From the NCBI RefSeq assembly GCF_018829635.1, contig NZ_JAHKKG010000007.1, forward strand, positions 124,001 through 188,000: a stretch of DNA of 64,000 nucleotides. Reading direction: 5' to 3'. The notes beneath the pieces were generated by a model. That model did not search any database and was not told the DNA's origin. It saw only the letters and a program-made list of their open reading frames with translations. A program made the translations under genes and the position numbers. The number at the start of each line of letters is the position of its first letter. Within the stretch, counting starts at the first letter, position 1. Below, piece by piece: positions 18,487-45,967 of this stretch. This DNA is from Paractinoplanes bogorensis. GTDB taxonomy: Bacteria > Actinomycetota > Actinomycetes > Mycobacteriales > Micromonosporaceae.

Positions 18487-18924
18487 TTAGCGGGTGGGTT
18501 GCGGCAGCTCGGCGGTGATCTTCTGGAGCAGCTGCTGGAGGGTGGCGCGCTCGGCGTCGTCGAGCGGGGCCAGGATCGTCTCGTCGGCGGCGGCCATGGC
18601 GGCCTCGAAGCCGGCGATCAACTCGATGCCGGCCGGGGTCGCGTAGACGCGCTTGACGCGCTCGTTGCCGGGCTCCGGGCGGCGCTCGACCAGGCCACGT
18701 CGTTCGAGACCCTGCAGGAGGCTCGACACACTGGCCGCACTCGTCCGCGTCATCTGGGCGATGTCGCGCTGGATGGCACCGGGGTTCTGCTCGAGAAAGC
18801 CCAGCGCGAAGCTCTGCTCGAAGCTGAGCTCGCGCTCGCGAACCCAGTCCTCGGCCGCCTTGCGCTGAGCCCAGCCGATCCAGCGGACCAGTTCGAGCGA
18901 GGTGGTGAGCCGTGGTGCATCCAT
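18487..18924 (-). CDS. MarR-family regulator of the MATE pump
   Basis: A 145-residue regulator. RTSAASVSSLLQGLERRGLVERRPE is the recognition helix and wing of MarR proteins, and IQRDIAQMTRTS precedes it. Dimer helices lie at both ends. The start is the ATG at 18924. A good promoter (TTGACA at 18960-18955, TAGCTT at 18937-18932, 17-bp spacing) would begin transcription one or two bases before that ATG, giving a leaderless mRNA. The MATE gene follows 119 bases downstream. Three tandem 14-bp operator copies cover the promoter, so strong autorepression relieved by a drug-like ligand is likely. Confidence 0.88.
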   Translation of the reverse strand: MDAPRLTTSLELVRWIGWAQRKAAEDWVRERELSFEQSFALGFLEQNPGAIQRDIAQMTRTSAASVSSLLQGLERRGLVERRPEPGNERVKRVYATPAGIELIAGFEAAMAAADETILAPLDDAERATLQQLLQKITAELPQPTR

Positions 18925-18925
18925 A

Positions 18926-18969
18926 CTTAGAAAGCTAACCGTTAGAACTCTAACTGTCAACGCTCTAAG
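18926..18969. promoter_or_regulatory. Triple tandem operator of the MarR-MATE unit
   Basis: Read on the minus strand, CTTAGAGCGTTGAC (18969-18956), GTTAGAGTTCTAAC (18954-18941) and GTTAGCTTTCTAAG (18939-18926) are three copies of a GTTAGNNNTCTAAC-like palindrome at a strict 15-bp period. The middle copy is perfect and fills the spacer between the -35 and -10. The other two are imperfect and cover the -35 and the transcription start. Confidence 0.72.
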
Positions 18970-19012
18970 CATGGAAAAGCCGGCCGGGATGTCCGGCCGG
19001 CTTGCTTCTCCG

Positions 19013-20671
19013 TCAGTTCGTGGCCAGGGCCGACTTCAGGTCGTCGGCGGCCGGGGCGGGGGTGAAGACCGGTTCGGCCCGGTGCTCGCCGCAGACCTCG
19101 CACTCCGGATCGCCCTCGGCCTCCATCCAGACGCTCTGGTACGCGTCCTGGTTGGGGATACCGTCGAAGACCCGGGGGAAGAAGTCGAACTCGCGGACGT
19201 TGCTCAGCAGCACGACGTTGTGCCGGGCGATCAGGGCCGGCCACAGGAAGTCGCGGGCCGGGGTGTCCTCGTCCAGGTGCAGCAGGGCCAGCGCCATCTT
19301 GGCCGCCGCGGTGGTGACATGGGCGATGTCGGGGCCGAGCGCCACCTCACCGGCCAGCCGTCCGGTGCCGTAGTCGACGGCCGGCCGGACGGCGTCGCTG
19401 CTGTGCCGGATCCCGGTCGCGCAGCGGTAGCAGGTGGTGATGCCCGGCACCGAGTACACCAGCTCCCCGGCCTTGGCCCCGGCGTAGAGCCCGACATAGA
19501 GCGAGGGCCGGGCCGTGGCCCCCGCGAAGTAGTTCAGCGCGGCCTGCGCGGCCGGGTCGTCGGTGCACCCGATCACCAGGTGGTGCGAGCGGACCAGGTC
19601 GCCCAGCCCGTCACCGAGGCCGGCGATCGTCGACGACACCGTGGTCACGTCGGCCGCGGGCTGGATGCTCCGCAGGTGATCGGCCAGCGCCTCGGTCTTG
19701 GGCCGGCCGAGGTCGGCCACCCGGTAGACCGAGCGGGACAGGTTCTCGGGGCTGACCTCGTCCGGGTCGATCAGGGTGAGCCGCTCGACGCCCGAGCGCA
19801 CCAGCAGGTCGGCCAGCACGCTGCCGACGCTCCCGGCCCCGGCGATGAGCACCCGGCGGCCGGCCAGCTTCTCGCTGACCATGCCCCGGGTGCGGGCCGC
19901 GAGCCCGGCCCGCACCGTGCCGGGCGCCGGGGACCCGCCGAGCGCCCGGGTCAGCGCCGGGGCCAGCTCCTGCCCGGGCCGCCAGTCCAGCGCCACCGCC
20001 TCGGTCCGGCCGTCCGGCGGGGTCCGCAGCACCGTCGGCGGCAGCAGCGGATAGGACTCGTGAGCGAGGACGGTCAGTTCCTCCCCGTCGGGCCGGGTGA
20101 TGGTCGCGGTCAGCACCAGCGCCCCGGCGAACGTCCCGGGGACCGGTTCCGTGGTCACCCGGCCGCCCAGGGCGTCGGCCGCCGCCCGGACGTGCCGGCC
20201 CAGCGGCACGACGGTGGTCGGCGTCAGGAACACCTGGACCCCGCCGTCGACCGACGGCACCGCGCGGTAGACCGACATCTTGGCCCCGGCGAGCGGGATC
20301 TCGTGCGGCTTCTGCGGATCGGCCCGCCGGTGCGTGACGATCGGGGCCAGGAAGGTGCCGCGGGCCGGGTTGAGGCGCAGGCTGTCCGCGTACGCGCGGT
20401 GGTCCTGGCCGGACGGATGATCCATGCCCGCCGGATGGCTGTGCAGGATCCCCTTGAACTCCAGGTTCTCCTCGCGCTCGACCCGCCGCACGTGCTGCTC
20501 GAGCTGGTCGGACGAGTTGTACGAGACGTCGCTGGTGCGGCCCTGGGGGTCGGCCAGGAACCGGGTCACCAGCGACCGGCCGGCCGGGCCGAGCAGGGCG
20601 CCGCCGCGCTCGGCCGGGTGCGCCGCCACCTCGCGCTCGATCTCGTCGAGGGCAGTGTCCAGGATGTGCAT
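19013..20671 (-). CDS. JAB (JAMM) protease fused to E1-like ThiF/HesA adenylating enzyme
   Basis: A 552-residue fusion. Residues 1-130 form a JAB domain: Glu21 in ERGGALLGP and a full JAMM motif HSHPAGMDHPSGQD (His77, His79, Ser87, Asp90) that binds catalytic zinc. Residues 265-460 form an E1-like domain: RRVLIAGAGSVGSVLADLL for ATP, then ERLTLIDPDEVSPENLSRS, the Lys in LGRPKTEAL, and zinc cysteines CYRC (414-417) and CEVC near the end. It should activate the C-terminus of a ubiquitin-like or substrate protein and also process or remove it. Residues 160-250 contain YPLLPPTV, an E2-like pattern without a catalytic Cys. The E2-like gene ends eight bases upstream. No ubiquitin-like gene is nearby. 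Confidence 0.85.
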   Translation of the reverse strand: MHILDTALDEIEREVAAHPAERGGALLGPAGRSLVTRFLADPQGRTSDVSYNSSDQLEQHVRRVEREENLEFKGILHSHPAGMDHPSGQDHRAYADSLRLNPARGTFLAPIVTHRRADPQKPHEIPLAGAKMSVYRAVPSVDGGVQVFLTPTTVVPLGRHVRAAADALGGRVTTEPVPGTFAGALVLTATITRPDGEELTVLAHESYPLLPPTVLRTPPDGRTEAVALDWRPGQELAPALTRALGGSPAPGTVRAGLAARTRGMVSEKLAGRRVLIAGAGSVGSVLADLLVRSGVERLTLIDPDEVSPENLSRSVYRVADLGRPKTEALADHLRSIQPAADVTTVSSTIAGLGDGLGDLVRSHHLVIGCTDDPAAQAALNYFAGATARPSLYVGLYAGAKAGELVYSVPGITTCYRCATGIRHSSDAVRPAVDYGTGRLAGEVALGPDIAHVTTAAAKMALALLHLDEDTPARDFLWPALIARHNVVLLSNVREFDFFPRVFDGIPNQDAYQSVWMEAEGDPECEVCGEHRAEPVFTPAPAADDLKSALATN

Positions 20672-20679
20672 CGCGGGCC

Positions 20680-21219
20680 TCACTGGTCGTAGGTGAAGGG
20701 GAACTGGCCGCCGCGGCGCACCACGCTGACACCGTTGCTCCACAGCACGGCCCGGGCGTACGAGCCGTCCAGGGTCGCCATGCCGATGGTCGGGCTCAGG
20801 CAGACCGTGCCGTCCCGGTAGAGGTGCGCCTGGTGCTCACCGAACAGCCCGCTCAGATCGGGCGCCACCAGCATCGTGCGGTACTGCTGGTGCTGGGTGC
20901 TGTAGTAGCTGAAGAACGAGTACGGGTCGCCGAACTCGTTGAAGAACGTGTACATCCAGCCGGTCGTGCGGCCGACCGTGCGCTGGTGGGTGCCGGGCGG
21001 CAGCTTCATCATCGCGACCCGGGCCTCGACCGCGGGCGACTGGGCCACGGCGAAGGTCTCCTTGCTGAGCCGGGCCGCCATGTCGTCGCGGCCGTCCCGG
21101 GTGATCCGGCCGTCCCGGGTGACGCGCAGGTCGCCCGGGGTGGCGTCGCCGCGCCGCTGGGACTGCTGCAGGTCCTGCCGCAGCGCGTTGAGGTCGATGT
21201 CGTCGGACGGATGGGTCAT
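20680..21219 (-). CDS. E2-like (prokaryotic UBC-fold) conjugation protein
   Basis: A 179-residue protein. The core reads VEARVAMMKLPPGTHQR, then two aromatic strands (WMYTFFNEFGDPYSFFSYY), then HLYRDGTVCLSP with the sole cysteine at residue 140 preceded by His132. This HxxxxGxxCL pattern is how prokaryotic E2-like proteins place the thioester cysteine, and WSNGVSVV follows. The first 60 residues are polar and probably flexible. The stop is eight bases before the JAB-E1 gene, so E2 and E1 are made together. The E2 assignment rests on motif and operon, not on a database match. An alternative is an unrelated protein that merely travels with an E1. Confidence 0.72.
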   Translation of the reverse strand: MTHPSDDIDLNALRQDLQQSQRRGDATPGDLRVTRDGRITRDGRDDMAARLSKETFAVAQSPAVEARVAMMKLPPGTHQRTVGRTTGWMYTFFNEFGDPYSFFSYYSTQHQQYRTMLVAPDLSGLFGEHQAHLYRDGTVCLSPTIGMATLDGSYARAVLWSNGVSVVRRGGQFPFTYDQ

Positions 21220-21370
21220 GGCGGTTGTCCTTCCGGGCGAAGCGAATGTGTCACCAGATTCGGACGCCGGGTGGATCAACGTGGGAAAGCTTGCGCGGTG
21301 CCCGAACGGCGCCCCGGCCGACCCGTTCCGGCGGGGGTTTCCGGCGTCGCCGGCGGGTTAGGTTGCCACG

Positions 21371-22420
21371 GTGAAACAGGGTGTTATGTACGCGCACATC
21401 CACACTCCCTGCGGTCCCGGCGACTCCCCGTTGCCCGCCGACTGCCCGTTCGACGGGCACAAGGAGCCGGACGGTGTGGAGCTCTACGAGCTGAAGTGCC
21501 GGGTGCGGAAGGTGCCCCGCGGCGGCCACCTGTGGTTCGGCGCGGTGCGGCCCGCCGAGATCGCCGCGGACGACTGGCTGCAGGTCGGCGACCACGAGCC
21601 CGGGCCGCAGTCGGCGGTGAGCCGGGTGGCCGGGCGCATCTGGTTCACCTCACCCGAGCAGGGCTCCCGGGTGCTGGTCGAGAACCTCTCCCACAACAAC
21701 ACCCTGGAGCTGCGCTCCGACCGGCTGCCGCAGCCGGTCACGCTGTTCCCGATCGCCGCCGCGATGACCACCGATCCGCACTCCGAGCTGCTCGGCTCGC
21801 CGATGGCCGCGGTCCAGACCCAGAGCACCACCGTGGTGATCGCGAACGGGTCGACCAGATTCGTGGTGTGGATCGAGGTGCCGATCCGGCGCGAGTCACC
21901 GATCACCCCGCCCTGGACCCACGATCCGCGGGCGGCCGGCTCGACCGCCGAGCAGGCCGAACTGGACGACGCGGCACTGCGGATCCAGCTCGCCGCGCCC
22001 GAGAACTACCAGCTGCTGGCCGACTTCACGGACAGCGAGCGGGTGAAGAACCGGCTGCGCAACAGCGCCCGGCTGCGGGCCTTCGTCGAGCGGCGGCCGG
22101 GCGAGATCTGGCAGGACTTCGTCAAGCGCGAGCTCCGCAACGTGCGCGAGGGCCGGCCGACCCACGAGATCCACCGCCTGATCCTGGAGAGCATCGGCAC
22201 CCCGCCCGAGCACGACTCCAAGTGGTACACCAACCTGGTGGCCCACCACCTCGCGCCGGAACGCGAGGTCCGCGGCAGCCGGGGCGGGGCCGGCGGCGGC
22301 ATGAACGATCTGATTCCCAAGGTCAAGGGCTACTGGGCGTTCCGCCGCTTCCAGCTCGAGGACTACCTGTTGCGCGACCGCGGCCTCGACCGGGGCATCG
22401 GGCGCGACCTCGACGACTAG
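21371..22420 (+). CDS. FHA-like protein with C-terminal helical domain, in the E1/E2 locus
   Basis: A 349-residue cytosolic protein I do not recognise from any named family. Residues 8-35 (YAHIHTPCGPGDSPLPADCP, then FDGH) hold two Cys and several His that could bind a metal. Residues 35-190 show the strand pattern of an FHA domain: VSRVAGRIWF (compare the SRxHa of FHA), then VLVENLSHNNTLEL. Residues 200-310 are helical (RVKNRLRNSARLRAFVE, FVKRELRNVREGRPT), perhaps a winged helix. FHA domains bind phosphothreonine, so the nearby kinase could be its partner. The GTG at 21371 is preferred over ATG 21386. It is divergent from the E2 gene and shares a CTAG stop overlap with the next gene. Confidence 0.6.
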   Translation: MKQGVMYAHIHTPCGPGDSPLPADCPFDGHKEPDGVELYELKCRVRKVPRGGHLWFGAVRPAEIAADDWLQVGDHEPGPQSAVSRVAGRIWFTSPEQGSRVLVENLSHNNTLELRSDRLPQPVTLFPIAAAMTTDPHSELLGSPMAAVQTQSTTVVIANGSTRFVVWIEVPIRRESPITPPWTHDPRAAGSTAEQAELDDAALRIQLAAPENYQLLADFTDSERVKNRLRNSARLRAFVERRPGEIWQDFVKRELRNVREGRPTHEIHRLILESIGTPPEHDSKWYTNLVAHHLAPEREVRGSRGGAGGGMNDLIPKVKGYWAFRRFQLEDYLLRDRGLDRGIGRDLDD

Positions 22421-23601
22421 GGCGTATCCCGTAATCGCAGCGGCTCGCAGCGACCGGCCGTGCACACCAGATGGCCGGTCGCCGCGAGTGTCTCGGGCAG
22501 CCCCGGGCCGGCGTACCGGCCGAGGAACTCACGCCCGTCCGGATCGCTGCCCGCGCCCAGGAACAGCACCGAGCCACTGTTGTTGACCACGGTCGACCGT
22601 TCCGGCCCGTATCGGGCCTGCAACTGGGCCAGGTCGTGCCAGAACGTCACCACCTGCACGTCCAGGCCGCGTCCGGTGGTCACCCACTCCAGCAGATGCT
22701 CGGTGACCCCGGGCACCTGCGCGGCCTCGTCGACGAGCAGCAGCAGCGGCCGGATCGGCGGGCCGCTCGCCGCCCGGGCCTGCACCCGCGACCAGAGCCG
22801 GGTCAGCACCGCGGCGAACAGCGGCGCGACCTGCCGCATCCGGAAGGCGGGCAACGTCATGGCCAGCGTGGCGTCCTCGTCGAGGATCCGGTCGAGGGTG
22901 AAGTCGGAGCCGGTGGTCGCGCGCACCACGCCGGGCCGGTTGAACACCCGCAGCGCCTGGCCCACCGTGGCCATCACGCTGGTGCGGGCCCGCGCCTCGA
23001 GTTCGAGCACGCTGCGCAGCATGCGGATCGCGATCGGGTCGCCCGACTGCACGACCAGCCGTTCCGCCTGCGGGGAACGGTCGCGCACGGCCAGGTCGAC
23101 GATCTGCCCGATGTCGAGGCCGGCCCGGGCTCCGGCGTAGAGGATCGGTGCGGTCCAGTTCTGCGCCAGCTCGAGCCAGAACGGCCCCTCCCGCAGCCCG
23201 CCCGAGGCGCCCCCGCCCAGCAGGACAGCCGCCACGTCCTGCGCGTCGGCCAGCGTGACGATCCACGAGGCCAGGTCGAAGCGGGCCGCCTCGACCCCGG
23301 TGGGCAGCGCCTCCTCGGGGTCGAGGAGCCAGACCGGGCCACGCTCCTGCCGGGCCGGATAGGCCGCGCCGATCAGATCCGTCTTGACGCTGAGCACCAC
23401 GGCCGGCCCGGGCCAGTCGGCCAGGATCGGCGCCGCGACCCGGGTGGTCTTGCCCGAACCGGTCGGGCCGATCACCGTCACCGGCAGCAGCGGCGGGGCG
23501 TGGATGGCGCCGCCCTGCGGAGACCGGCCGAGCTCGAGGCCGGGTGACTGATTGGGCGGGCGGCGCCGCACCGGGAACGGCGACGGGCTGGCGGGTGACA
23601 T
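22417..23601 (-). CDS. VirD4/TraG-like type IV coupling-type ATPase, no membrane anchor
   Basis: A 394-residue P-loop ATPase. GPTGSGKTTRVAAPIL is the Walker A of VirD4/TraG/TrwB-type conjugation coupling proteins, LLLLVDEAAQVPG is the Walker B, and TTGRGLDVQVVTFWHDLAQL is the conserved sensor block that follows it in this family. LSVKTDLIG (compare the VTDxKxE/D block) and the RILDEDATLAM strand also fit. True coupling proteins carry N-terminal membrane helices, and none is present. No relaxase or other type IV secretion gene lies in the window. This suggests a cytoplasmic motor used by the surrounding conflict locus, perhaps moving DNA. Its TAG stop shares CTAG with the FHA-like gene's TAG. 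Confidence 0.8.
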   Translation of the reverse strand: MSPASPSPFPVRRRPPNQSPGLELGRSPQGGAIHAPPLLPVTVIGPTGSGKTTRVAAPILADWPGPAVVLSVKTDLIGAAYPARQERGPVWLLDPEEALPTGVEAARFDLASWIVTLADAQDVAAVLLGGGASGGLREGPFWLELAQNWTAPILYAGARAGLDIGQIVDLAVRDRSPQAERLVVQSGDPIAIRMLRSVLELEARARTSVMATVGQALRVFNRPGVVRATTGSDFTLDRILDEDATLAMTLPAFRMRQVAPLFAAVLTRLWSRVQARAASGPPIRPLLLLVDEAAQVPGVTEHLLEWVTTGRGLDVQVVTFWHDLAQLQARYGPERSTVVNNSGSVLFLGAGSDPDGREFLGRYAGPGLPETLAATGHLVCTAGRCEPLRLRDTP

Positions 23602-23790
23602 GGGCCCGAGTGTCGGCGCCGGCCGGAACGGGCGGCGCGCAAGCTTGCGCGCGTCCCGGCGCCCGCCCCGGAACCCTTCCGGTCATGGAGTCCCACTTAC
23701 TCATGCCCACCGCGGAACGCAATCCTCCGGGAACCGGATGACGAGGTCACGGCCCGCCCGGCAAGCTCGAGCGGCGGGGAAAGGGGACGG

Positions 23791-26700
23791 ATGCTCGAGG
23801 ATCCGGAGCCCATCGGCGAGCCGGACGAACCGGCCGACGACTGGGTGTGGCCGCGGGCCGCCGACGGCCGGTCGCGGCTCCGGCGGCTGGGCCCGAACGG
23901 CCGGTACACGCTGCGCGGCTTCTTCGGCGACGGCGGGCAGGCCTACATCTGGTACGCGCCGGACGCGGTCGACGGCTTCCCCAAGGCGATCAAGACGTCG
24001 CGCCCGGACGGCACCCTCGGCAGCGGTCAGGTCGCGGCGCGGCGGCTGGTCCGCGAGGCCCGGATCATGCAGTCGATCCCGCCCCACCCGAACGTGATGC
24101 CGCTGCTCGACTGCGGCCCCGACCACCTCGTGCGCCCCGAGTCGGAAGGGCTGCGGCCCCGGCCCGACGACCCGTACGAGGCCCGCGACCCCTGGCTCGT
24201 CCTGCCGCTGACCCCGCACCACCGGCTGGGCGACCTGATCGCGGCCGGCCCGCTCACCGCGGAGGCGTGGCTGAAGCTGGCCCGGGGGTACGCCGCCGGG
24301 CTGGCCCACCTGCACCGCTCCGAGGTCGTGCACCGCGACCTGTCGCCGGGCAACGTGCTGCTGACCGCGGACGGCCCGGTCATCACCGACTTCGGCGTCT
24401 CGTGGGCGCCCCGCTGGTTCGACCGCGAGGTCGAGCAGACGATGAGCACCGGGCTGACCCGGCAGGCCGCGGGCCGCACCGAGGACTGGCACGCGCCCGA
24501 GGTGATCGACGCCCCGCTGAGCCGCCGCCCCGACCGGCAGCCCGCGTACGACGTGTTCAGCTGGGGCCTGTTCGTCGCCACCGCCGCGGCCGGGCGGCAC
24601 CCGTGGTCCAAGACGCCGGGCCACCTCGTGCTGGAGCGGTTCGAGCGCGACCGGATGAGCCGGGCCGAGACGCCGTACGACCTCGACCGGCACCTGGCCC
24701 ACGCCGGCTGGGCCGACCTCGTGCTGGCCGCGCTGGAGCCGGACCCGGCCGACCGCCCGACCGCGGCCGACCTGGTCGAGGCACTCGACCGCGAACCGGC
24801 CCGCCGCCGCCGCGCGACGTCGCGGACCGAGACCCCGCAGGACCGGCCGGTGGTCGTGCTGCGCGAGGCGCTCCTCGAGCGGTGGCGCTCGGATCCGGTG
24901 TGGCTGCGGGTGGGCGGCGAAAGCCGCCTGCCGATCGGCTGGGCCGACGGCGACCCGGACGAGCCGGACGCGGTGGCGCGGCTGCTCCGTGTCTGGGCGC
25001 CGGACGGCCCCACGGCCCGGATGCTCGTGCTCGGTGCCGCCGGGTCGGGAAAGTCCGAGCTGCTCGTCGGCGTCTTCCGGCGGCTGCTGACCGACTGGCG
25101 GGAGGGGCAGCCGCTGCCACTGCTGGTGCCGCTGGCGTCGTGGGATCCCGCGCTGAGCGATCTGCGAACCTGGCTCATCGACTGGCTGCACGTCAACCAC
25201 CAGTTCCTCGATCGGCCGGCCGGCGGTCCGGTGCCGCGGACGCAGGCCGAGCGGCTGCTCGACGGCCGCCAGCTCGCCCTCATCCTCGACGGCCTGGACG
25301 AGGTGCTCGACAAGGACCGGCCGGACCGGGTCGTGGCCCAGCTCAACAACCTCGACGGCCCGGCCCAGGTCCTGGTCAGCTGCCGTGCCGGGCGGCCGGC
25401 CACCGGCGAGCTGTTCCGGGGCGGCGTCACGCTCACGCTCGACGCCCAGGACCCGGCCGAGGCCGTCGGCCACCTGCGCCGGAACGGGCCGGCCGACGGG
25501 CGGTGGGATCCGGTCGTCGCGAGCCTGCCCGGGCGACTCGACCTGGCCGAGGTGCTGCGGACCCCGCTGATGGTGATGCTGGCCGACGCCCTCTACAACG
25601 ACGAGAACCGCCCACCGCCGAGCGAACTGCTCGACCGGCACGGCCCGGAGGCTCTCACCCAGCACCTGCTGCGGGGCTTCGTCCCGGCCCGCTATGCGGA
25701 GGAAACGGCTGAGTACTCCGCCCCGGACGCGCGCCGCTGGCTCGGCTACCTGGCCCGGATGACCGCCGGCCCGGGCGAGCTGCGCTGGTGGGACCTGCGG
25801 GTCACCTCGGCCCCGGCCTCGCCGGTCTGGCTGCACGTGGGCACGTTGGCCGCCGTGATCGGGTGGACCGCGCTGTCGGCCGGTGTCATGAACACGGGAG
25901 TGTTCGGCAGCGCCGAGACCGGGCTGACCGACGCGATCCGGATCACGCTGGCCGCGCTGCTCGGCTACGCCGCGATCTTCCGGGTGACCGGGAGCTATCC
26001 GGCCGCGGTGCTGGCCGTGCTGGGCGCCTACATCACCGGGGTGCTGAGTGGCTCGTACGACCTGGCCGTCGCGACCGGGCTGGTGGCCGGGTTCTCCTGG
26101 CGGCCGCTGCAGCCACGCGCCCCGGCCCGCGGCGGCGACCTGCTGACCGCTGTCGGGGTCGGCGTCGCGGCGGTGGCGGGCGTGATCGCCGTACGGGTGC
26201 TGTCCCTGTTCGTGCCGCTCGACGACGCCCTGGTCATGGGGTTCGCCGCCGGTACGTTCGACGGGTTCACGGTGCGCTGGGACGAGGACGTGAACGGCTG
26301 GCTCGCCACCGGCCTGGTCGCCGGGCTGCTGACGTGGGCCGGGATCCGGGTGACCCGGGGTGGCGGACCGGCCCGGCCGCTGCTGTGCGGGCTCGTCGCC
26401 GGTGTCGTCGTATGCGCGATCGACGTGTGGGCCGACGGCGCCCGCCCGGGCATCGACCGGCCCTGGCTGCTGGCCCCGGGCGACGGTCTCGCGGCCGGGC
26501 TCGCCGTGTGGTGGATCGTCTGGGTGACCCGGGGCCGACGGCCGGTCCACCCTCGGATGGTCCGGCTCGGCGCGCCCCTGCTGTTCGGCGGCTTGACCGC
26601 CGCGCTCAACCTCCTCGGCTACCTCGACCGGGCCGACGTGACCGCCGGTCCGGTGCGGGCGCTCGGCGAGGGCGCGGCGGTCGCCGTGCTGCTCGGGCTG

Positions 26701-27651
26701 GCCCTGCGCCCGTCGCCCGGTGCCGGGCACCGGCGGCGCAAGGTCGTCCCGGTGGTGGTCGCGGTGCTGGTGGGTGCGGCCGTCGGCGCGCTGCACGCGG
26801 TGTCGGCCGGTCCCGCCAAAGGTGCCGCGGCCGGCTTGTCCATGGCGCTGACCGTGCTCTTCTTCCTGCTGCGGGACGAGGTCCGCTCCGGCCCGGCCCG
26901 GATCGATCCGGTCGAGGCCGGGGTTCTCGGGCTGACCGTGGCCGGGCTGCTGACCGGTTTCGCCTACGCGCTGCTGTTCGCGCTGGTGGCCGGCCTGGGT
27001 TCGCGGGTGTCGGCCGACGTCTCGCAGCGCCGCCTGCCGTCGCTGCGGATCAGCGCGCCCGCCGCCCAGATCGTCGGCGGTGCGCTGCTGGGCACGATGG
27101 CCGCCTTCGCCGCCGGGGCCAACGGGTTCCCGATGGTCTGGCTCGTCGTCATCGGTGTCACCGGCGGGGTCGCCGGGGCGTACGCGTTCGGCATCCGCGG
27201 CGACGATCCGCGCAACCGGCTCGCGGCCTCGCCGACCCGGCTCTTCCGGCAGGACCGCCGGGTGTTCGTCCGGATGACCGCGGTCATCGCCGTGGCGCTC
27301 GGCACCGCCGTCGGTGCCCGCACGGCCGCGGGCGGGCAACCGGCCGGCACCGCCCTGGCCGTGGCGGCCGGCACGCTCGCCACCTACGGCCTGACCGCCG
27401 GGTTGACGGTCGCGGCGTCGGCGACCCGCTACGGCGTGTTCGCGGTGCGCAGCGCCTATCTGGCCGCCTCGGACCAGTTGCCCTGGCGGCTGATGCGGTT
27501 CCTCGACGACGCCCACGGCCGGCGGCAGGTGCTGCGGGCGGCCGGCTCGGCCTACCAGTTCCGCCACGAACTGCTGCGCGAGCAGATCGCCGACGCCGGC
27601 CCGCACGACACCGGCGCCCGGACGCCCGTCGCCGGCGCCCCGCCGCGCTGA
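23791..27651 (+). CDS. Ser/Thr kinase-NACHT-polytopic membrane protein
   Basis: A 1,286-residue three-part protein. Residues 35-260 are a protein kinase: Lys68 (KAIK), Glu89, VVHRDLSPGNVLL (Asp183), ITDFG (Asp200) and HAPEV. Residues 405-640 are a NACHT-type STAND ATPase: LVLGAAGSGKSELL (Walker A, Lys421) and LALILDGLDEVLDKD (Walker B). From about residue 680 to 1240 the chain is a run of at least twelve hydrophobic segments. A cytoplasmic tail follows. STAND proteins sense a trigger, oligomerise and act through an attached domain. Here a kinase input and membrane output would suit an abortive or signalling system. The ATG at 23791 has GGGGA upstream. The long antisense ORF is a shadow. Confidence 0.85.
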   Translation: MLEDPEPIGEPDEPADDWVWPRAADGRSRLRRLGPNGRYTLRGFFGDGGQAYIWYAPDAVDGFPKAIKTSRPDGTLGSGQVAARRLVREARIMQSIPPHPNVMPLLDCGPDHLVRPESEGLRPRPDDPYEARDPWLVLPLTPHHRLGDLIAAGPLTAEAWLKLARGYAAGLAHLHRSEVVHRDLSPGNVLLTADGPVITDFGVSWAPRWFDREVEQTMSTGLTRQAAGRTEDWHAPEVIDAPLSRRPDRQPAYDVFSWGLFVATAAAGRHPWSKTPGHLVLERFERDRMSRAETPYDLDRHLAHAGWADLVLAALEPDPADRPTAADLVEALDREPARRRRATSRTETPQDRPVVVLREALLERWRSDPVWLRVGGESRLPIGWADGDPDEPDAVARLLRVWAPDGPTARMLVLGAAGSGKSELLVGVFRRLLTDWREGQPLPLLVPLASWDPALSDLRTWLIDWLHVNHQFLDRPAGGPVPRTQAERLLDGRQLALILDGLDEVLDKDRPDRVVAQLNNLDGPAQVLVSCRAGRPATGELFRGGVTLTLDAQDPAEAVGHLRRNGPADGRWDPVVASLPGRLDLAEVLRTPLMVMLADALYNDENRPPPSELLDRHGPEALTQHLLRGFVPARYAEETAEYSAPDARRWLGYLARMTAGPGELRWWDLRVTSAPASPVWLHVGTLAAVIGWTALSAGVMNTGVFGSAETGLTDAIRITLAALLGYAAIFRVTGSYPAAVLAVLGAYITGVLSGSYDLAVATGLVAGFSWRPLQPRAPARGGDLLTAVGVGVAAVAGVIAVRVLSLFVPLDDALVMGFAAGTFDGFTVRWDEDVNGWLATGLVAGLLTWAGIRVTRGGGPARPLLCGLVAGVVVCAIDVWADGARPGIDRPWLLAPGDGLAAGLAVWWIVWVTRGRRPVHPRMVRLGAPLLFGGLTAALNLLGYLDRADVTAGPVRALGEGAAVAVLLGLALRPSPGAGHRRRKVVPVVVAVLVGAAVGALHAVSAGPAKGAAAGLSMALTVLFFLLRDEVRSGPARIDPVEAGVLGLTVAGLLTGFAYALLFALVAGLGSRVSADVSQRRLPSLRISAPAAQIVGGALLGTMAAFAAGANGFPMVWLVVIGVTGGVAGAYAFGIRGDDPRNRLAASPTRLFRQDRRVFVRMTAVIAVALGTAVGARTAAGGQPAGTALAVAAGTLATYGLTAGLTVAASATRYGVFAVRSAYLAASDQLPWRLMRFLDDAHGRRQVLRAAGSAYQFRHELLREQIADAGPHDTGARTPVAGAPPR

Positions 27652-27677
27652 GCCTCAGCACATCGGCGGTCTGATTC

Positions 27678-28379
27678 CTACGCGGGCAGGGCCGCCTGTT
27701 CGAGGGCGGGCGGCCCGGACGGCGTACGGGAAATGCGCAGCCAGACCACGAAACCCCAGAGCACGAACCCGGCGTAGACCGCGTAGAGGATCGCCGACGG
27801 GTAGTAGCCGAAGTGCAGCAGCTCGGGGACGCCGACCAGGTCGACGGCGATCCAGCAGAGCCAGAACTCGACCCAGCCGCGGGCCATGGCGTAGGTGGCC
27901 AGCATCGAGCCGACGAAGATCCACGAGTCGGCCAGGTAATACCACCAGGGGACCGGGAAACCGGCGCCGACCTGGCGGAACACGAAGAAGCAGACGGCCA
28001 CGGCGGCCAGCGCGACCAGGCCGTAGCCGAGGCGCTGCCGCGAGGTCGCCCAGCGCGGGGAGACCGCGGTTCCCTTCGTACGCCTCCGGTTGCTCTGCCA
28101 GATCCACCAGCCGTAGACGCTGGCGATCAGGAAGAACACCTGGCGCGCGGCCTGCCCGTAGAGCGGGGTGCCCTGGTCGTTGCCGACCGCCTGGCCCATG
28201 AACACGGTGAACAGCAGCACGTTGCCGACGATGCCGACCGGCCAGGCCCAGGCGCTGCGGCGCAGGCCGAACAGTGCCGACCCGAGCCCGAAGGCGTTGC
28301 CGATGATCTCGCGCCAGTAGATCGCCTGGTCGGCGGTCACCTGCCACTTGGCCGTGTAGAAAGAGTCGAGCCAGCTCAC
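27678..28379 (-). CDS. pnuC: PnuC-type nicotinamide riboside transporter
   Basis: A 233-residue membrane protein with seven hydrophobic segments. WREIIGNAFGLGSALFGLRR, WAWPVGIVGNVLLFTVF and the YGWWIWQSN segment are PnuC hallmarks, and WYYLADSWIFVGSMLATY and WFLWIAVD-like WFWLCWIAVDLVGVPEL follow. PnuC moves nicotinamide riboside by facilitated diffusion into NAD synthesis. The gene ends 26 bases after the kinase-NACHT stop, on the opposite strand, and diverges from corA through a 49-base gap that must hold both promoters. No nadR-like gene is adjacent, so the kinase that traps the substrate lies elsewhere. Confidence 0.9.
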   Translation of the reverse strand: MSWLDSFYTAKWQVTADQAIYWREIIGNAFGLGSALFGLRRSAWAWPVGIVGNVLLFTVFMGQAVGNDQGTPLYGQAARQVFFLIASVYGWWIWQSNRRRTKGTAVSPRWATSRQRLGYGLVALAAVAVCFFVFRQVGAGFPVPWWYYLADSWIFVGSMLATYAMARGWVEFWLCWIAVDLVGVPELLHFGYYPSAILYAVYAGFVLWGFVVWLRISRTPSGPPALEQAALPA

Positions 28380-39409: not shown

Positions 39410-39425
39410 ATTGACGATTGTCAAT
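39410..39425. promoter_or_regulatory. Inverted repeat between LPMO and membrane-protein genes
   Basis: ATTGAC and GTCAAT arms flank a four-base spacer (39410-39425), and a further ATTGAC half-site begins at 39433, overlapping a TTGACA. The arms match those of the MarR operator at 4302, though the spacer is longer. It lies about 100 bases upstream of the LPMO start and near the start of the small membrane gene. A shared operator is a guess. Confidence 0.4.
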
Positions 39426-39453
39426 ACTAGAGATTGACAGAGTACTTTACGGT

Positions 39454-39804
39454 GTGGTCGTGCAGCCGCATCCTCCCCCGGAACCCGAGTCGTTCCTCGA
39501 GAAGGAATACCTCGGCATCCCGCTCTTCATCCACATCGCGGCGACCGCTGTCACCTGCGGGCTGTGGCTCATCGTGCTTCTGGTCGTCGCTCCCGTCGAG
39601 TCGGCCAAGCGGCAGATCATGAATCCGGTCGACCGAGTGGTCGACTCTCTCTTCGAGAAGGCCCTCATGGCGGCCCTGACGATCCTGGCCGTGCCGGCCT
39701 ACCTCCTCTACACGGGTGGTCAGTGGCTCTACAAACGCTGGAAGGCGCGGAGACCGAAGCCTGAGGCACACTCGTCCGATGGACCCCCTGGACCACGCGG
39801 CTGA
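39454..39804 (+). CDS. Small two-helix membrane protein
   Basis: A 116-residue protein with two hydrophobic segments (IPLFIHIAATAVTCGLWLIVLLVVAPV and ALMAALTILAVPAYLLYTGG) separated by a polar stretch (SAKRQIMNPVDRVVDSLFEK) and followed by a basic tail. I do not recognise a family. The start is uncertain: GTG codons lie at 39454 and 39460, and a TTG at 39418 would add twelve residues. Its last 26 bases overlap the start of the sirtuin gene, so they are probably co-transcribed. It may be a membrane anchor or regulator of unknown kind. Confidence 0.6.
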   Translation: MVVQPHPPPEPESFLEKEYLGIPLFIHIAATAVTCGLWLIVLLVVAPVESAKRQIMNPVDRVVDSLFEKALMAALTILAVPAYLLYTGGQWLYKRWKARRPKPEAHSSDGPPGPRG

Positions 39805-40480
39805 GTTGATCGCCGGTGCACAGCGACTCGTCGTCTTCACCGGCGCCGGCATGTCGGCCGAGAGCGGCGTACCCACCTTCCGCGACGCCCTGACCGGGCT
39901 GTGGGAGCAGTACGACGCTCAGGAGCTGGCCACCCCGGAGGCCTTCGAGCGCGACCCGGCCCTGGTCTGGGGCTGGTACGAGTGGCGCCGCGAACTGGTC
40001 GAGCGGGTGTCGCCCAACGCCGGCCACGACGCGGTGGCCCGCCTCGACTGCACGCTGATCACCCAGAACGTCGACGACCTGCACGAGCGGGCCGGCTCCA
40101 AGAATGTTGTGCACCTGCACGGCAGCCTGTTCGCCCCGCGCTGTTCGGCATGCGGGCGCCCGGCCGACGGCGCTCTGCCGGGCAACCCGCCTGCGTGTGC
40201 GCACTGCGAGTTCCCCGTACGGCCGGGGGTGGTCTGGTTCGGTGAAGCGCTCCCGATGTCCGCGCTCAAGACGGCGGTGGAGTCCGCGGCCGACGCCGAC
40301 GTGCTGGTCACCGTCGGGACGTCGGGACTGGTCTACCCCGCGGCCGAGATCCCGCACGTGACGGCCAAGATGGGCGGCACCGTCATCCAGGTCAATCCGC
40401 AGGCCACCCCGCTCGACGAGGCCTGCGCGATCAACCTGCGCGGCACCGCCGGGGAAGTGCTCCCAAAGATCATCCGGTAA
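39779..40480 (+). CDS. NAD-dependent protein deacylase (sirtuin, SIR2 family)
   Basis: A 233-residue sirtuin. VVFTGAGMSAESGVPTFRDA binds NAD, ITQNVDDLHERAG is the second conserved block, and VHLHGSL holds the catalytic His. Four cysteines (CSAC and CAHC) form the structural zinc site. VVWFGEALP and GTSGLVYPAAEIP complete the fold. It removes acyl groups from lysines, releasing nicotinamide. The length is the usual one for single-domain bacterial sirtuins. The ATG at 39779 overlaps the membrane-protein gene by 26 bases. No acetyl-CoA synthetase lies next to it, so the targets are not predicted. Confidence 0.93.
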   Translation: MDPLDHAAELIAGAQRLVVFTGAGMSAESGVPTFRDALTGLWEQYDAQELATPEAFERDPALVWGWYEWRRELVERVSPNAGHDAVARLDCTLITQNVDDLHERAGSKNVVHLHGSLFAPRCSACGRPADGALPGNPPACAHCEFPVRPGVVWFGEALPMSALKTAVESAADADVLVTVGTSGLVYPAAEIPHVTAKMGGTVIQVNPQATPLDEACAINLRGTAGEVLPKIIR

Positions 40481-42579: not shown

Positions 42580-42690
42580 CGGGGATTCCGCGACTCCGAC
42601 CGAAGGTGCGAAACCGGGCGCTGAGGCTTGCCTTTCGATCCGGACAAAAGCCAATATTCCGGGGCACTGTCCGCTTCGGAAGGACTTCGA

Positions 42691-44499
42691 GTGACTCAGG
42701 ATCGCACGGCTGATCGTTCCAGTGTCGGAGCACGCGCCGACACGTACGGCACGTCGACCATGGACCTGAGCGGACGGTGCGTCGGCAGCTCGTACGTGCT
42801 CCAGCGCCCGATCGGCCAGGGCGCGACCGGCACCGTGTGGGAGGCGCTCGACCAGTCCACCGGCCGGTCGGTGGCGGTCAAGCTGTTGCACGAGAGCCTG
42901 CTGCGCCAGCCCAAGCTGGTCACCCGGTTCGTGCAGGAGCGCACGATCCTGCGGATGCTGCGCCACCGCAACGTCGTCCGGGTGCGCGACCTGTTCAGCG
43001 TGGGCGAGACCATCGGCCTGGTGATGGACCTGGTCAGCGGGGGCAGCCTGCGCGACCTGCTGCGCACCGAGCACACCGTCGGCCCCGGCGAGGCGGCCCG
43101 GCTGACCGCCCAGGTCGCCGCCGCGCTGGCCGAGGCGCACGACCTCGGCGTCGTGCACCGCGACCTCAAGCCCGACAACATCCTGCTGGCGATGGCCGAC
43201 GGCCGCCCCGACACCCGCCTGACCGACTTCGGCGTGGCCCGCATCCTCAACACCCCGAGCATGACCACGCCCAGCGCGGTCGTCGGCACCCCGCACTACA
43301 TGTCGCCCGAGGCCTTCCACGGCGCCACGGCCAGCCCCGCGACGGACGTCTACGCGCTCGGCGTGCTCCTGTACGAACTGGTCAGCGGACACCCGCCGTA
43401 CATGAGCGACTCGATCCCCGACCTGATGCGCCGCCACCTGGAGGGCAACCCGATCCGCCGCCCCGGCATCCCCGGCCCGGTCTGGGACGTGATCACGGCC
43501 TGCATGGAGCAGAAGCCCCGCCTGCGCCCCACCGCCGCCGAACTGGTGGCCGACCTCTCCGACGCCGCCCGCCGCTTCGCCGACGTCCCGGCTCTGCCGC
43601 CACCGTCCACGGAGTCCCTGCTCGAACAGGCGCGTCCGGCGCCGATCCTGCAGCCCGCGATCGAGCCCGTACGGTCGGAACCGCTCCTGCCCCCGCCCCC
43701 CGAATCACTTGTCCCCGCACCGCGCCGCCCCGAGCGCCGCAACGCCGTCCCGAGCTGGCGCTGGGCCCGCCCCGGCGCCACCATGGCCCTGATCGCCGGC
43801 GCGATGGTCGCCTCGGCCGTCGCCACCACGGCCTGGAACATCGGCCGCTCCGACAGCACCCCGCAGGACCTGGCCGCTCCCCAGGTGGTCACCGCCCCTG
43901 CATCGACCACCTTGACCCGCCCCAGCTCGGCAGCGGCCGCACCGGGCCGAGCCGCAGCTACGGCCGCCGCCACCACCCCGGCCGGTGCTCCCGGCCGCCG
44001 CGCTCTCGCCGCCGACTCCCGGCCGATCTCCCCCTCGGCCACGCCCGCGCCCCCGGCGCCGCCGCGTTCCGCCGCCCCCGCGGCCACGCACACCCGGCCG
44101 TCACCGACGCGTTCCCCCAAGCCCGAGGCCAAGCCGTACGGCCCGTGGGAGTGCAGCTCCGGCATCGCGGTCGACTGGCAGACCAAGATGGGCGTGGTGG
44201 CCAAGCCGTGCCGGATGAGCGGCCGTGACATCCGCTACCAGGGTTCCCTGACCGGCCCCGGCGGTGGCCGCGGCCGCATCACGGTGGAACTGCAGGACAC
44301 CAGCACCGGCCGTACCGTCGACGGCCCCCGAACCTGCGACAACCTGTCCTTCGAGGGCCGCCTGGGCACCCAGAACTGCGGCCCCGAATCCGCCAAGCCG
44401 GCCCGCGGCCACTCGTACGCCGTGGTCGTCTCGTTCAGTTACGAGCGCGAGGGCCAGACCCTGACCAGCAAGGCCAAGGGCCCCACCTTCACCTGGTAG
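42691..44499 (+). CDS. Membrane Ser/Thr protein kinase with secreted C-terminal domain
   Basis: A 602-residue PknB-type receptor kinase. The kinase domain (residues 25-290) has IGQGATGTVWEAL, the Lys in SVAVKLLHES, HRDLKPDNILL, LTDFGVARI and a GTPHYMSPEAF activation segment. One membrane helix (MALIAGAMVASAVATTAW) lies near residue 380. A Ser/Pro/Ala-rich extracellular linker leads to a final domain of about 110 residues (WECSSGIAVDW, CRMSGRDIRY, CGPESAK) with four cysteines. It is not a PASTA domain. The start is GTG 42691, with AGGA six bases upstream, rather than the earlier ATG at 42628. It should report an envelope signal by phosphorylation. Confidence 0.9.
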   Translation: MTQDRTADRSSVGARADTYGTSTMDLSGRCVGSSYVLQRPIGQGATGTVWEALDQSTGRSVAVKLLHESLLRQPKLVTRFVQERTILRMLRHRNVVRVRDLFSVGETIGLVMDLVSGGSLRDLLRTEHTVGPGEAARLTAQVAAALAEAHDLGVVHRDLKPDNILLAMADGRPDTRLTDFGVARILNTPSMTTPSAVVGTPHYMSPEAFHGATASPATDVYALGVLLYELVSGHPPYMSDSIPDLMRRHLEGNPIRRPGIPGPVWDVITACMEQKPRLRPTAAELVADLSDAARRFADVPALPPPSTESLLEQARPAPILQPAIEPVRSEPLLPPPPESLVPAPRRPERRNAVPSWRWARPGATMALIAGAMVASAVATTAWNIGRSDSTPQDLAAPQVVTAPASTTLTRPSSAAAAPGRAAATAAATTPAGAPGRRALAADSRPISPSATPAPPAPPRSAAPAATHTRPSPTRSPKPEAKPYGPWECSSGIAVDWQTKMGVVAKPCRMSGRDIRYQGSLTGPGGGRGRITVELQDTSTGRTVDGPRTCDNLSFEGRLGTQNCGPESAKPARGHSYAVVVSFSYEREGQTLTSKAKGPTFTW

Positions 44500-44776: not shown

Positions 44777-45967
44777 ATGGCGAAGAGCCAGTTCATCCGT
44801 ACGAAGCCGCACCTCAACATCGGCACGATGGGGCACGTCGACCACGGGAAGACGACCCTGACCGCCGCCATCACGAAGGTTCTCGCCGACCGCGACCCGG
44901 CCTCCAACCGGTACGTCGCGTTCGAGGGCATCGACAAGGCGCCGGAGGAGGCCGCCCGCGGCATCACCATCACCATCGCGCACGTCGAGTACGAGACGCC
45001 GAACCGGCACTACGCGCACGTCGACATGCCGGGCCACGCCGACTACGTGAAGAACATGATCACGGGCGCGGCTCAGGTCGACGGGGCGATCCTCGTGGTC
45101 AGCGCGCAGGACGGCAGCATGCCGCAGACCCGCGAGCACGTGCTGCTCGCCCAGCGGGTCGGCGTGCCGCACCTGGTGGTGGCGCTCAACAAGAGCGACG
45201 CCGTGGACGACCCGGAGCTGCTCGACCTGGTCGAGCTCGAGGTGCGGGAGCTGCTGAGCGAGTACGGGTTCCCCGGTGACGAGGTTCCCGTCGTACGGGT
45301 CAGCGCGCTGAAGGCGCTCGAGGGCGACCCGAAGTGGGTGCAGTCGGTGGTCGACCTGCTCGACGCGGTCGACGAGTACGTACCGATCCCGCCGCGCGAG
45401 CTCGGTGAGCCGTTCCTGATGCCGATCGAGAACGTGCTCACGATCAGCGGGCGCGGCACCGTGGTCACCGGCAAGATCGACCGCGGCACGCTGCGGGTCG
45501 GTGACGCGGTCGAGGTGGTCGGGCTCGGGCCCACCGTCGCCACCGTGGCGACCGGGCTCGAGACGTTCGGCAAGTCGCTCGAGACGGCCGAGGCCGGCGA
45601 CAACGCGGCGATCCTGCTGCGCGGCATCAAGCGCGACCAGGTGCAGCGCGGCCAGGTGGTGGCGTTGCCGGGCAGCGTGACCCCGCACCAGAAGTTCGAG
45701 GCCCGCATGTACGCGCTCACGAAGGAGGAGGGTGGCCGGCACACGCCGTTCGAGTCGAACTACCGGCCGCAGTTCTACTTCCACACCACGGACGTGTCCG
45801 GCGGCCTCGACCTGGGTGACCTCGACCTGGTCATGCCGGGCGACACGCTCGACAAGGTCACGGTGACGCTGGGCAAGCCGGTCGCGCTCGAGGCCGGCAC
45901 CGGTTTCGCGGTCCGTGAGGGCAACCGCACGGTCGCCGCGGGCACCGTGACGGCGCTGCTCGACTAG
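44777..45967 (+). CDS. tuf: Divergent second elongation factor Tu
   Basis: A 396-residue EF-Tu. GHVDHGKTT (P-loop), [15 protein letters not shown] (switch I), [12 protein letters not shown] (switch II) and NKSD carry the GTPase motifs, and domains 2 and 3 are complete. It is not the ordinary copy, which sits in the str operon: the canonical DCPGH reads DMPGH (E. coli Cys81), and the helix LLGRQVGVP reads LLAQRVGVP, placing Arg at E. coli position Gln124, a site whose replacement gives kirromycin resistance. It resembles the Streptomyces tuf3 type. GTP-dependent tRNA delivery should be kept. Its TAG stop shares CTAG with the convergent MFS gene. Confidence 0.9.

Follow-up and report, generated by a model that had tools for sequence, protein, structure and literature searches.

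A kinase-NACHT cassette with an optional E2/JAB-E1 conjugation pair in Paractinoplanes bogorensis

Introduction

Type II cyclic oligonucleotide-based anti-phage signalling systems (CBASS) are built from an E2-E1 protein (Cap2), a JAB protein (Cap3) and a CD-NTase. Here we describe a five-gene cassette of Paractinoplanes bogorensis (source genome 10.19 Mb in 40 contigs) that lies in a 64,000-nucleotide stretch of contig NZ_JAHKKG010000007.1 (positions 124,001 to 188,000, hereafter the window) and resembles type II CBASS in its E1, E2 and JAMM chemistry and in having no ubiquitin-like gene nearby. The cassette encodes a JAB-E1 fusion, a stand-alone E2 (ubiquitin-conjugating-like enzyme), a protein called FHA-like for a motif only, a VirD4/TraG-type ATPase and a Ser/Thr kinase-NACHT-membrane protein. 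Comparison across the genus identified the FHA-like and kinase-NACHT genes as the core of the cassette, and the conjugation pair and the motor as optional modules.

Other described systems come close to this gene set. In the sections cited here, Iyer et al. (2006) set out five operon types and give type 6e as a JAB-E1 fusion, a polyUbl protein and an inactive E2/RWD-like domain (PMC1779556). The cited part of the work on Bil (BilABCD) reports an E1, BilD, with the catalytic Cys417, and a two-domain ubiquitin-like protein, BilA (PMC11354881). Kaur et al. (2020), in the sections cited, present ubiquitin-like (Ubl) conjugation conflict systems with a Ubl-E2 fusion, separate JAB and E1, a RING E3, FtsH and a caspase-like effector (PMC7159879).

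The P. bogorensis cassette differs from each of them. Compared with type II CBASS, it has neither a CD-NTase (no nucleotidyltransferase family appeared among the Pfam matches of the five genes) nor a nucleotide-activated effector; its E2 is a separate gene of another family, its JAB is fused ahead of E1 and not separate, there is no Cap2-type E2-E1 fusion, and the E1-E2 models of PADLOC matched only the E1 half of JAB-E1 (residues 281-552). It shares with type 6e, as given in the cited sections, the fusion of JAB to the N-terminus of E1, whereas its E2 stands alone with Cys140 invariant in 27/27 homologues and no polyUbl gene lies in the cassette (PMC1779556). As in the cited account of Bil, E1, E2 and JAMM enzymes share one locus; in contrast, there is no BilA gene in the cassette, no invariant E1 cysteine beyond CxxC pairs, and JAB and E1 are fused (PMC11354881). 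The systems of Kaur et al. likewise tie Ubl-type conjugation to a signalling or STAND/vWA conflict system, with a different component set in the sections cited (PMC7159879). The kinase-NACHT protein matched mad6 (2.1e-28) and the VirD4-like ATPase mad8 (3.5e-7) of MADS in PADLOC, whereas the kinase match is generic (NCBIfam MADS6, 81 of the 460 bits needed) and Pfam found no methyltransferase gene in the cassette; the cap2_3 model of NCBIfam, for 6A-MBL, gave 91.6 bits against a cut-off of 320. By predicted gene content, type II CBASS, Bil, Iyer type 6e, 6A-MBL and MADS each fail on defining features. No paper describing this gene set was found among the entries listed from the open-licence literature, with subscription literature mostly outside the search, and an earlier description is possible.

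Results

The JAB-E1 gene (19013..20671, minus strand, 552 aa, ATG start) lies directly downstream of the E2 gene (20680..21219, minus strand, 179 aa), with which the FHA-like gene (21371..22420, plus strand) has a common divergent start region; the FHA-like gene in turn converges, with a 4-base overlap, on the VirD4-like gene (22417..23601, minus strand), and the kinase-NACHT gene follows (23791..27651, plus strand, 1286 aa). All five open reading frames (ORFs) proved real at these coordinates, which are those of a preliminary description made from the window's letters. The ratio of nonsynonymous to synonymous divergence (dN/dS) in window pairs was 0.26 for VirD4-like, 0.30 for JAB-E1, 0.36 for E2, 0.42-0.48 for kinase-NACHT and 0.63-0.69, the highest of the five, for the FHA-like gene; with orthologues found for each gene and the whole range at 0.26-0.69, the ORFs are more than chance and all five genes are kept by purifying selection. 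Since the only intergenic gaps measure 150 bp (21220-21370) and 189 bp (23602-23790), the cassette has no room for a ubiquitin-like gene, and none was found in it; the preliminary description had seen neither a CD-NTase nor a ubiquitin-like gene. A search of the source genome with Multi_ubiq (polyUbl) found no match but is uninformative, as the control likewise matched nowhere. The GC content of the block (0.745) is near that of its flanks (0.709 and 0.731), so it is not marked as foreign by composition.

The cassette genes were then compared in one sample of 67 genomes of the genus, the source genome included. The FHA-like gene was present in 4/67, a close kinase-NACHT orthologue (68-71% identity) in exactly the same four, and the VirD4-like and E2 genes in two of those each; they were physically adjacent each time, with E2 beside JAB-E1 in both E2-bearing cassettes. 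For a gene found in 2/67 genomes, the chance of falling within a given four is 6/2211 (hand arithmetic, with no correction for relatedness). Only the window cassette holds the full set of five. Cassette L054 carries E2 (79% over 175 aa), JAB-E1 (79%), FHA-like (61%) and kinase-NACHT (70%) genes and no VirD4-like gene; L055 carries the FHA-like and kinase-NACHT genes only, its flanking genes being otherwise common to L054, and in both the gap between these two genes is 27-84 bp, depending on the start. L056 (genome G882) has FHA-like, VirD4-like (79%), vWA, PP2C phosphatase, weak kinase and kinase-NACHT genes, and no E2/JAB-E1. The co-occurrence and adjacency thus bore out the proposal that these genes belong together, and the idea of one fixed five-gene system gave way to cassettes of five, four, three and two. 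Because two of the four are cleanly without the E2/JAB-E1 pair, the pair is accessory.

The vWA-PP2C-kinase-like triad of L056 (5460-8426, minus strand) sits between the VirD4-like and kinase-NACHT genes, an arrangement reminiscent of TerY-type triads. Judged by their predicted products, the PP2C, vWA and kinase genes are a further sign of phospho-signalling. That the cassette is instead an actinomycete developmental or envelope-stress phospho-relay with no conflict role is highly improbable: the kinase, FHA-like, PP2C and vWA genes of L056 do resemble phospho-relays, the kinase-phosphatase-Fha trio of type VI secretion systems for one, and the core is limited to the genus, whereas its distribution is patchy (4/67) and it is cleanly absent at the same sites.

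The cassette is bordered on the left by a MarR regulator gene (18487..18972, minus strand) and on the right by a gene for a PnuC-type nicotinamide mononucleotide (NMN) transporter (27678..28379, minus strand), which occurs in 51/67 genomes; both are syntenic where the relatives' site is without the cassette. Three of the five relatives fetched (G885, G880 and G869) keep both flanks, MarR-MATE and NMN transporter-CorA-FtsX, around another gene, a regulator of ~900 aa (LuxR-type by reading of its C-terminus) in place of the five genes, and the borders are therefore those of the preliminary description. In G880 a shorter regulator ORF adjoins a transposase-like ORF between the flanks, and the remaining two of the five fetched stretches gave no left flank. 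The interval from MarR to the NMN transporter (window 18973-27677; L099, L100 and L101) is a variable spot, held by either the cassette or a LuxR-type regulator. As the FHA-like/kinase-NACHT cassette of G869 and G880 lies ~390-405 kb from this site, the cassette has changed place. The genes shared by the window and L054 have synonymous divergences (dS) of 0.37, 0.45, 0.53 and 0.48, similar values that would fit one inherited unit. As L054 and L055 are closest to each other, a fuller ancestral cassette that later lost VirD4 and E2/JAB-E1 would be the simplest account. In plasmids, no relatives of E2 or of the FHA-like protein were found, and the JAB-E1 matches among the 40 of 337 records listed covered the E1 part only, none of them reaching 80% coverage.

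JAB-E1 scored above the Pfam cut-offs, with 42.6 bits for Prok-JAB and 114.1 bits for ThiF; the VirD4-like ATPase likewise exceeded that of its own family (below). The JAB part, a JAMM peptidase, carries the motif HSHP-x6-S-x2-D (residues 77-90; 20402..20443, minus strand) and the complete metal/catalytic residue set (E, HxH, S, D), and E21, H77, H79, S87 and D90 are invariant in 21/21 aligned full-length JAB-E1 proteins. The E1 half is a ThiF/MoeB-type adenylating enzyme with nucleotide-binding residues invariant across the 21 fusions; profile search gave MoeB (1jw9, 1.3e-23) and UBA5 (2.4e-23) as its best PDB matches, and these two are the nearest solved structures, whereas the E1 here is fused to JAB and paired with an E2. 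The only invariant cysteines in the 21 rows are C414, C417, C524 and C527, which form two CxxC pairs resembling a zinc site; with none invariant outside these pairs, E1 has no conserved candidate for a catalytic cysteine, and its adenylate may be transferred directly to E2. Between JAB and E1 lies a middle domain (19922..20236, minus strand) that looks UBC/RWD-like by eye (YP..PP); a profile search returned nine PDB matches up to E=10, no E2 among them, and the assignment was rejected.

The E2 was aligned in 27 rows (window, 25 loci described below and L054). None of the 27 homologues had a convincing Pfam match. The profile had a single PDB match at E<=1, the ubiquitin-conjugating enzyme 3we5 (E=0.0076, HMMER i-E 0.013, weak), which spans the active-site motif with the catalytic cysteine aligned. 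Cys140 (codon 20800..20802, minus strand), the only cysteine of the window protein, is invariant in all 27 rows, as are His129 and His132. An AlphaFold model with a predicted local distance difference test (pLDDT) score of 80.9 shows a helix, a four-strand meander, an active-site loop and a helix, and the first seven Foldseek matches of this model were all E2s with 3we5 on top, albeit weakly: the best reached E 0.054 at a probability of 0.90, TM stayed <= 0.40, and no match had E<=0.001. We take the protein to represent a genuine, though divergent, E2 family that lacks a Pfam model and is weakly yet consistently similar to eukaryotic E2s. It is rare, occurring in 2/295 Streptomyces-type genomes and in 1/200 genomes of a sample of the window's family. 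The residue numbers given earlier for JAMM His77, E2 Cys140 and kinase Asp183 are all correct.

To place the pair outside the genus, 84,980 species genomes were scanned with a three-row JAB-E1 alignment, which yielded at least 26 loci (a lower bound, as a hit must contain either of two short peptide patterns). By record title these span five phyla: Actinomycetota, Myxococcota, Chloroflexota, Acidobacteria and Bacillota. E2 directly precedes JAB-E1, or E1 where JAB is separate, in 25/26 loci, the sole exception being L049 with a JAB match only; in L034 (8347-11323) and L035 (8270-11203), unlike the fusion of the other loci, JAB and E1 are encoded separately and E2 lies between them. Outside the genus the pair is thus portable, and it keeps company with different partners. 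Eight Streptomyces loci have an operon of a Ser/Thr kinase with a TPR-like C-terminus, E2, JAB-E1 and a small membrane protein (seen in seven; in the eighth the contig ends). Five Nonomuraea/Streptomyces loci have an unnamed protein, a low-complexity protein, E2, JAB-E1, a HerA/DUF87 ATPase and a membrane protein. The cluster-4 protein of these HerA operons was considered as SPFH/slipin-like; Pfam, NCBIfam and a PDB profile gave nothing, and it remains unnamed. The Catenulispora, Anaeromyxobacter, Acrocarpospora, Thermoflexus, Acidobacteria and Niallia loci have no common partner, except for SH3-type membrane proteins in L024 and L034.

None of the 26 loci matched the FHA-like or VirD4-like protein, and the kinase-NACHT query met kinase domains only (27-29%), so that FHA-like, VirD4 and NACHT-kinase were each found in 0/26 other E2/JAB-E1 loci. 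In a 21-row JAB-E1 tree (without L034, L035, L043 and the truncated L046-L048), the window and L054 cluster with the rows from Chloroflexota and Myxococcota (100/100) and outside the 16 remaining actinobacterial ones; rooting was at the midpoint only, and the program issued a warning about long branches that meet. The window/L054 branch is separate from that of the Streptomyces kinase operons, so that, if the tree is right, kinases joined the E2/JAB-E1 module at least twice.

These data bear on the alternative that one mobile cassette holds two unrelated systems, one made of the FHA-like and kinase-NACHT proteins and the other an E2/JAB-E1 conjugation system that acts independently on targets of its own, joined only because the region is a swap site. 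The 26 loci in which the pair lives without these partners, the two of four cassettes that lack it and a JAB-E1 grouping as if separately acquired would all be expected under this alternative. Against that, both E2 copies of the genus adjoin an FHA-like gene, at different chromosomal sites and with the low chance probability given above, in the window E2 and the FHA-like gene start divergently from one region, and kinase neighbours recur on another branch of the JAB-E1 tree. We regard two unrelated systems as a serious though rather unlikely account.

The low-complexity proteins directly before E2 in the HerA-type operons (L027:8446-9378, L029:8473-9408, L031:8266-9408, L036:8489-9319 and L038:1198-2142) are 276-380 aa long and 32-65% identical, with 25/419 alignment columns invariant, and end in GG-[QNHY]-R(-P/G) in 5/5 loci, making them possible modifiers. 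A C-terminal glycine as conjugation target was also sought elsewhere and rejected: the Streptomyces operon kinases end in SEG, SEE, LRA, TRA and DHG with no conserved glycine, and a tail glycine is not conserved in the genus FHA-like and kinase-NACHT proteins either. A bolder proposal is that E2 and JAB-E1 form a portable module of two genes that bacteria of five phyla have coupled to signalling machinery of different kinds (on at least two occasions to kinase operons, and on at least two to ATPase motors), and that this module needs no beta-grasp ubiquitin: the GG-tailed, apparently disordered protein of the HerA operons would be the modifier, its GG end exposed by the JAMM peptidase, Pup-like and run by ubiquitin-type enzymes; in kinase cassettes the partner protein itself would be attached; and E1 would hand its adenylate straight to E2. 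Taken jointly, these parts make a distinctly long shot.

The kinase-NACHT protein scored 78.5 bits for Pkinase, with Gly loop, AIK, HRD (residues 181-183; 24331..24339, plus strand), DFG and APE intact, and a simple hydropathy scan found nine hydrophobic segments; NACHT stayed below its cut-off (see Discussion). The Walker A motif of the NACHT part spans residues 415-422 (25033..25056, plus strand). NACHT-membrane relatives of its C-terminal part occur in 43/67 genus genomes at E<=1e-10, the next-closest at 45, 44, 39 and 41%, and the cassette partners do not lie beside these four loci.

The VirD4-like ATPase reached 70.5 bits for T4SS-DNA_transf against a cut-off of 20.1, with Walker A and B present. 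A simple hydropathy scan found no N-terminal transmembrane segment, and among the 18 of ~58 predicted window genes covered by the Pfam scan no type IV secretion system or relaxase gene matched; unlike the conjugative coupling protein VirD4, the ATPase thus has neither an N-terminal membrane anchor nor, among the scanned genes, a relaxase/secretion context. It matched 116 plasmid records, 58 of them over 80% coverage, the best at ~30% identity among the 12 of 116 listed. The most likely account is a second accessory module acting as a cytosolic motor or effector.

The matches of these two proteins in PADLOC raise the question of defence. An anti-phage abortive infection system, in which the kinase-NACHT protein, primed by the conjugation pair, both senses infection and kills at the membrane and the VirD4-like ATPase handles invading DNA, is unlikely. 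STAND NTPases, kinases and E1-E2 proteins recur among defence components, Ubl conjugation is known inside conflict systems in the cited part of PMC7159879, the distribution is patchy, and besides mad6 and mad8 the kinase-NACHT protein matched PD-T4-6; the kinase matches, however, span the kinase domain only, such kinases are common, MADS6 fell short as stated, and no neighbouring defence genes were seen. A defence role is plausible from component types and PADLOC matches. The claim that the locus matches no catalogued gene set stood up to the Pfam, PADLOC and NCBIfam scans.

Further along the window, a large Ser/Thr kinase gene (42628-44499, Pkinase 183.6 bits) is adjoined by a gene that reads as EF-Tu-like (44777-45967), and a 128-aa ORF without a Pfam match precedes, with slight overlap, a Sir2-family gene (PF02146, 163 bits; together 39418-40480). 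Outside the window, the same genome encodes a separate second JAB protein (G000:C6:275785-276129, 109 bits).

Discussion

We tentatively favour a reading of the cassette as a discrete, exchangeable membrane phospho-signalling/STAND cassette with an accessory conjugation-deconjugation module that tunes it. Disturbance would be sensed by the NACHT part, which would bind ATP and cluster the kinase-NACHT protein at the membrane, switching on its kinase and membrane part, with the FHA-like protein as its presumed partner. The E1 half would adenylate a modifier or partner protein at its C-terminus, Cys140 of E2 would receive that protein and hand it on to a target, and the JAMM peptidase of the fusion would trim it or take it off. 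E2/JAB-E1 probably fixes the threshold at which the core responds, a part that E2-E1/JAB plays for the cyclase of type II CBASS; here neither a cyclase nor a local ubiquitin-like gene is present. The VirD4-like ATPase would act as a cytosolic motor or effector. We infer the order of events, the conjugation target and any role in conflict or defence.

This tuned-cassette reading is supported by the co-occurrence and adjacency in 67 genomes, the cassette borders, the linkage of E2 and JAB-E1 in 25/26 loci and the intact JAMM, E1 and E2 residues, as well as by the kinase beside E2/JAB-E1 on a separate branch in eight Streptomyces loci and the HerA/DUF87 ATPase in five more.

Several observations weigh against it. 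Just four cassettes are known, all from one genus; should E2/JAB-E1 and VirD4 prove dispensable, their closeness may reflect common mobility and not a common function; the kinase gene of the window lies outside the E2 operon; and no relatives of JAB-E1 or the FHA-like protein were confirmed in viral contigs. NACHT scored 21.4 bits, below the Pfam cut-off of 26.7, though its Walker A/B motifs are intact. The FHA identity put forward in the preliminary description found no support: Pfam gave no match of any kind in 4/4 orthologues at E<=10, the profile had no relevant match in the PDB, and with a profile of nine FHA domains from the same genome the protein ranked seventh among window proteins, not significantly, with AVSKVVGRI...ENLSxNNTLEL aligned onto the FHA motif. 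At the possible 'GR' of that motif the window copy reads VGD (Arg to Asp) against VGR in the three orthologues; translation may start at ATG 21386 rather than GTG 21371; and an AlphaFold model on four rows, with a helical C-terminal half, reached pLDDT 42 and was not taken to fold search. Beyond the genus the gene was found nowhere, the same four genomes being the only ones among 250 family genomes (44 genera).

The E2/JAB-E1 pair is a bacterial E1-E2-JAMM module of a new class and an optional part of a kinase-STAND cassette. It would add to bacterial ubiquitin-like conjugation an operon class with an E2 family outside Pfam, the first such class known to us that is linked with protein kinases and with a STAND switch. 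Should the apparently disordered, GG-tailed proteins indeed be modifiers, ubiquitin-type enzymes would be able to use a modifier lacking the ubiquitin fold. Because nature provides cassettes both with E2/JAB-E1 and without it, the effect of conjugation on a kinase-STAND system is open to a ready test.

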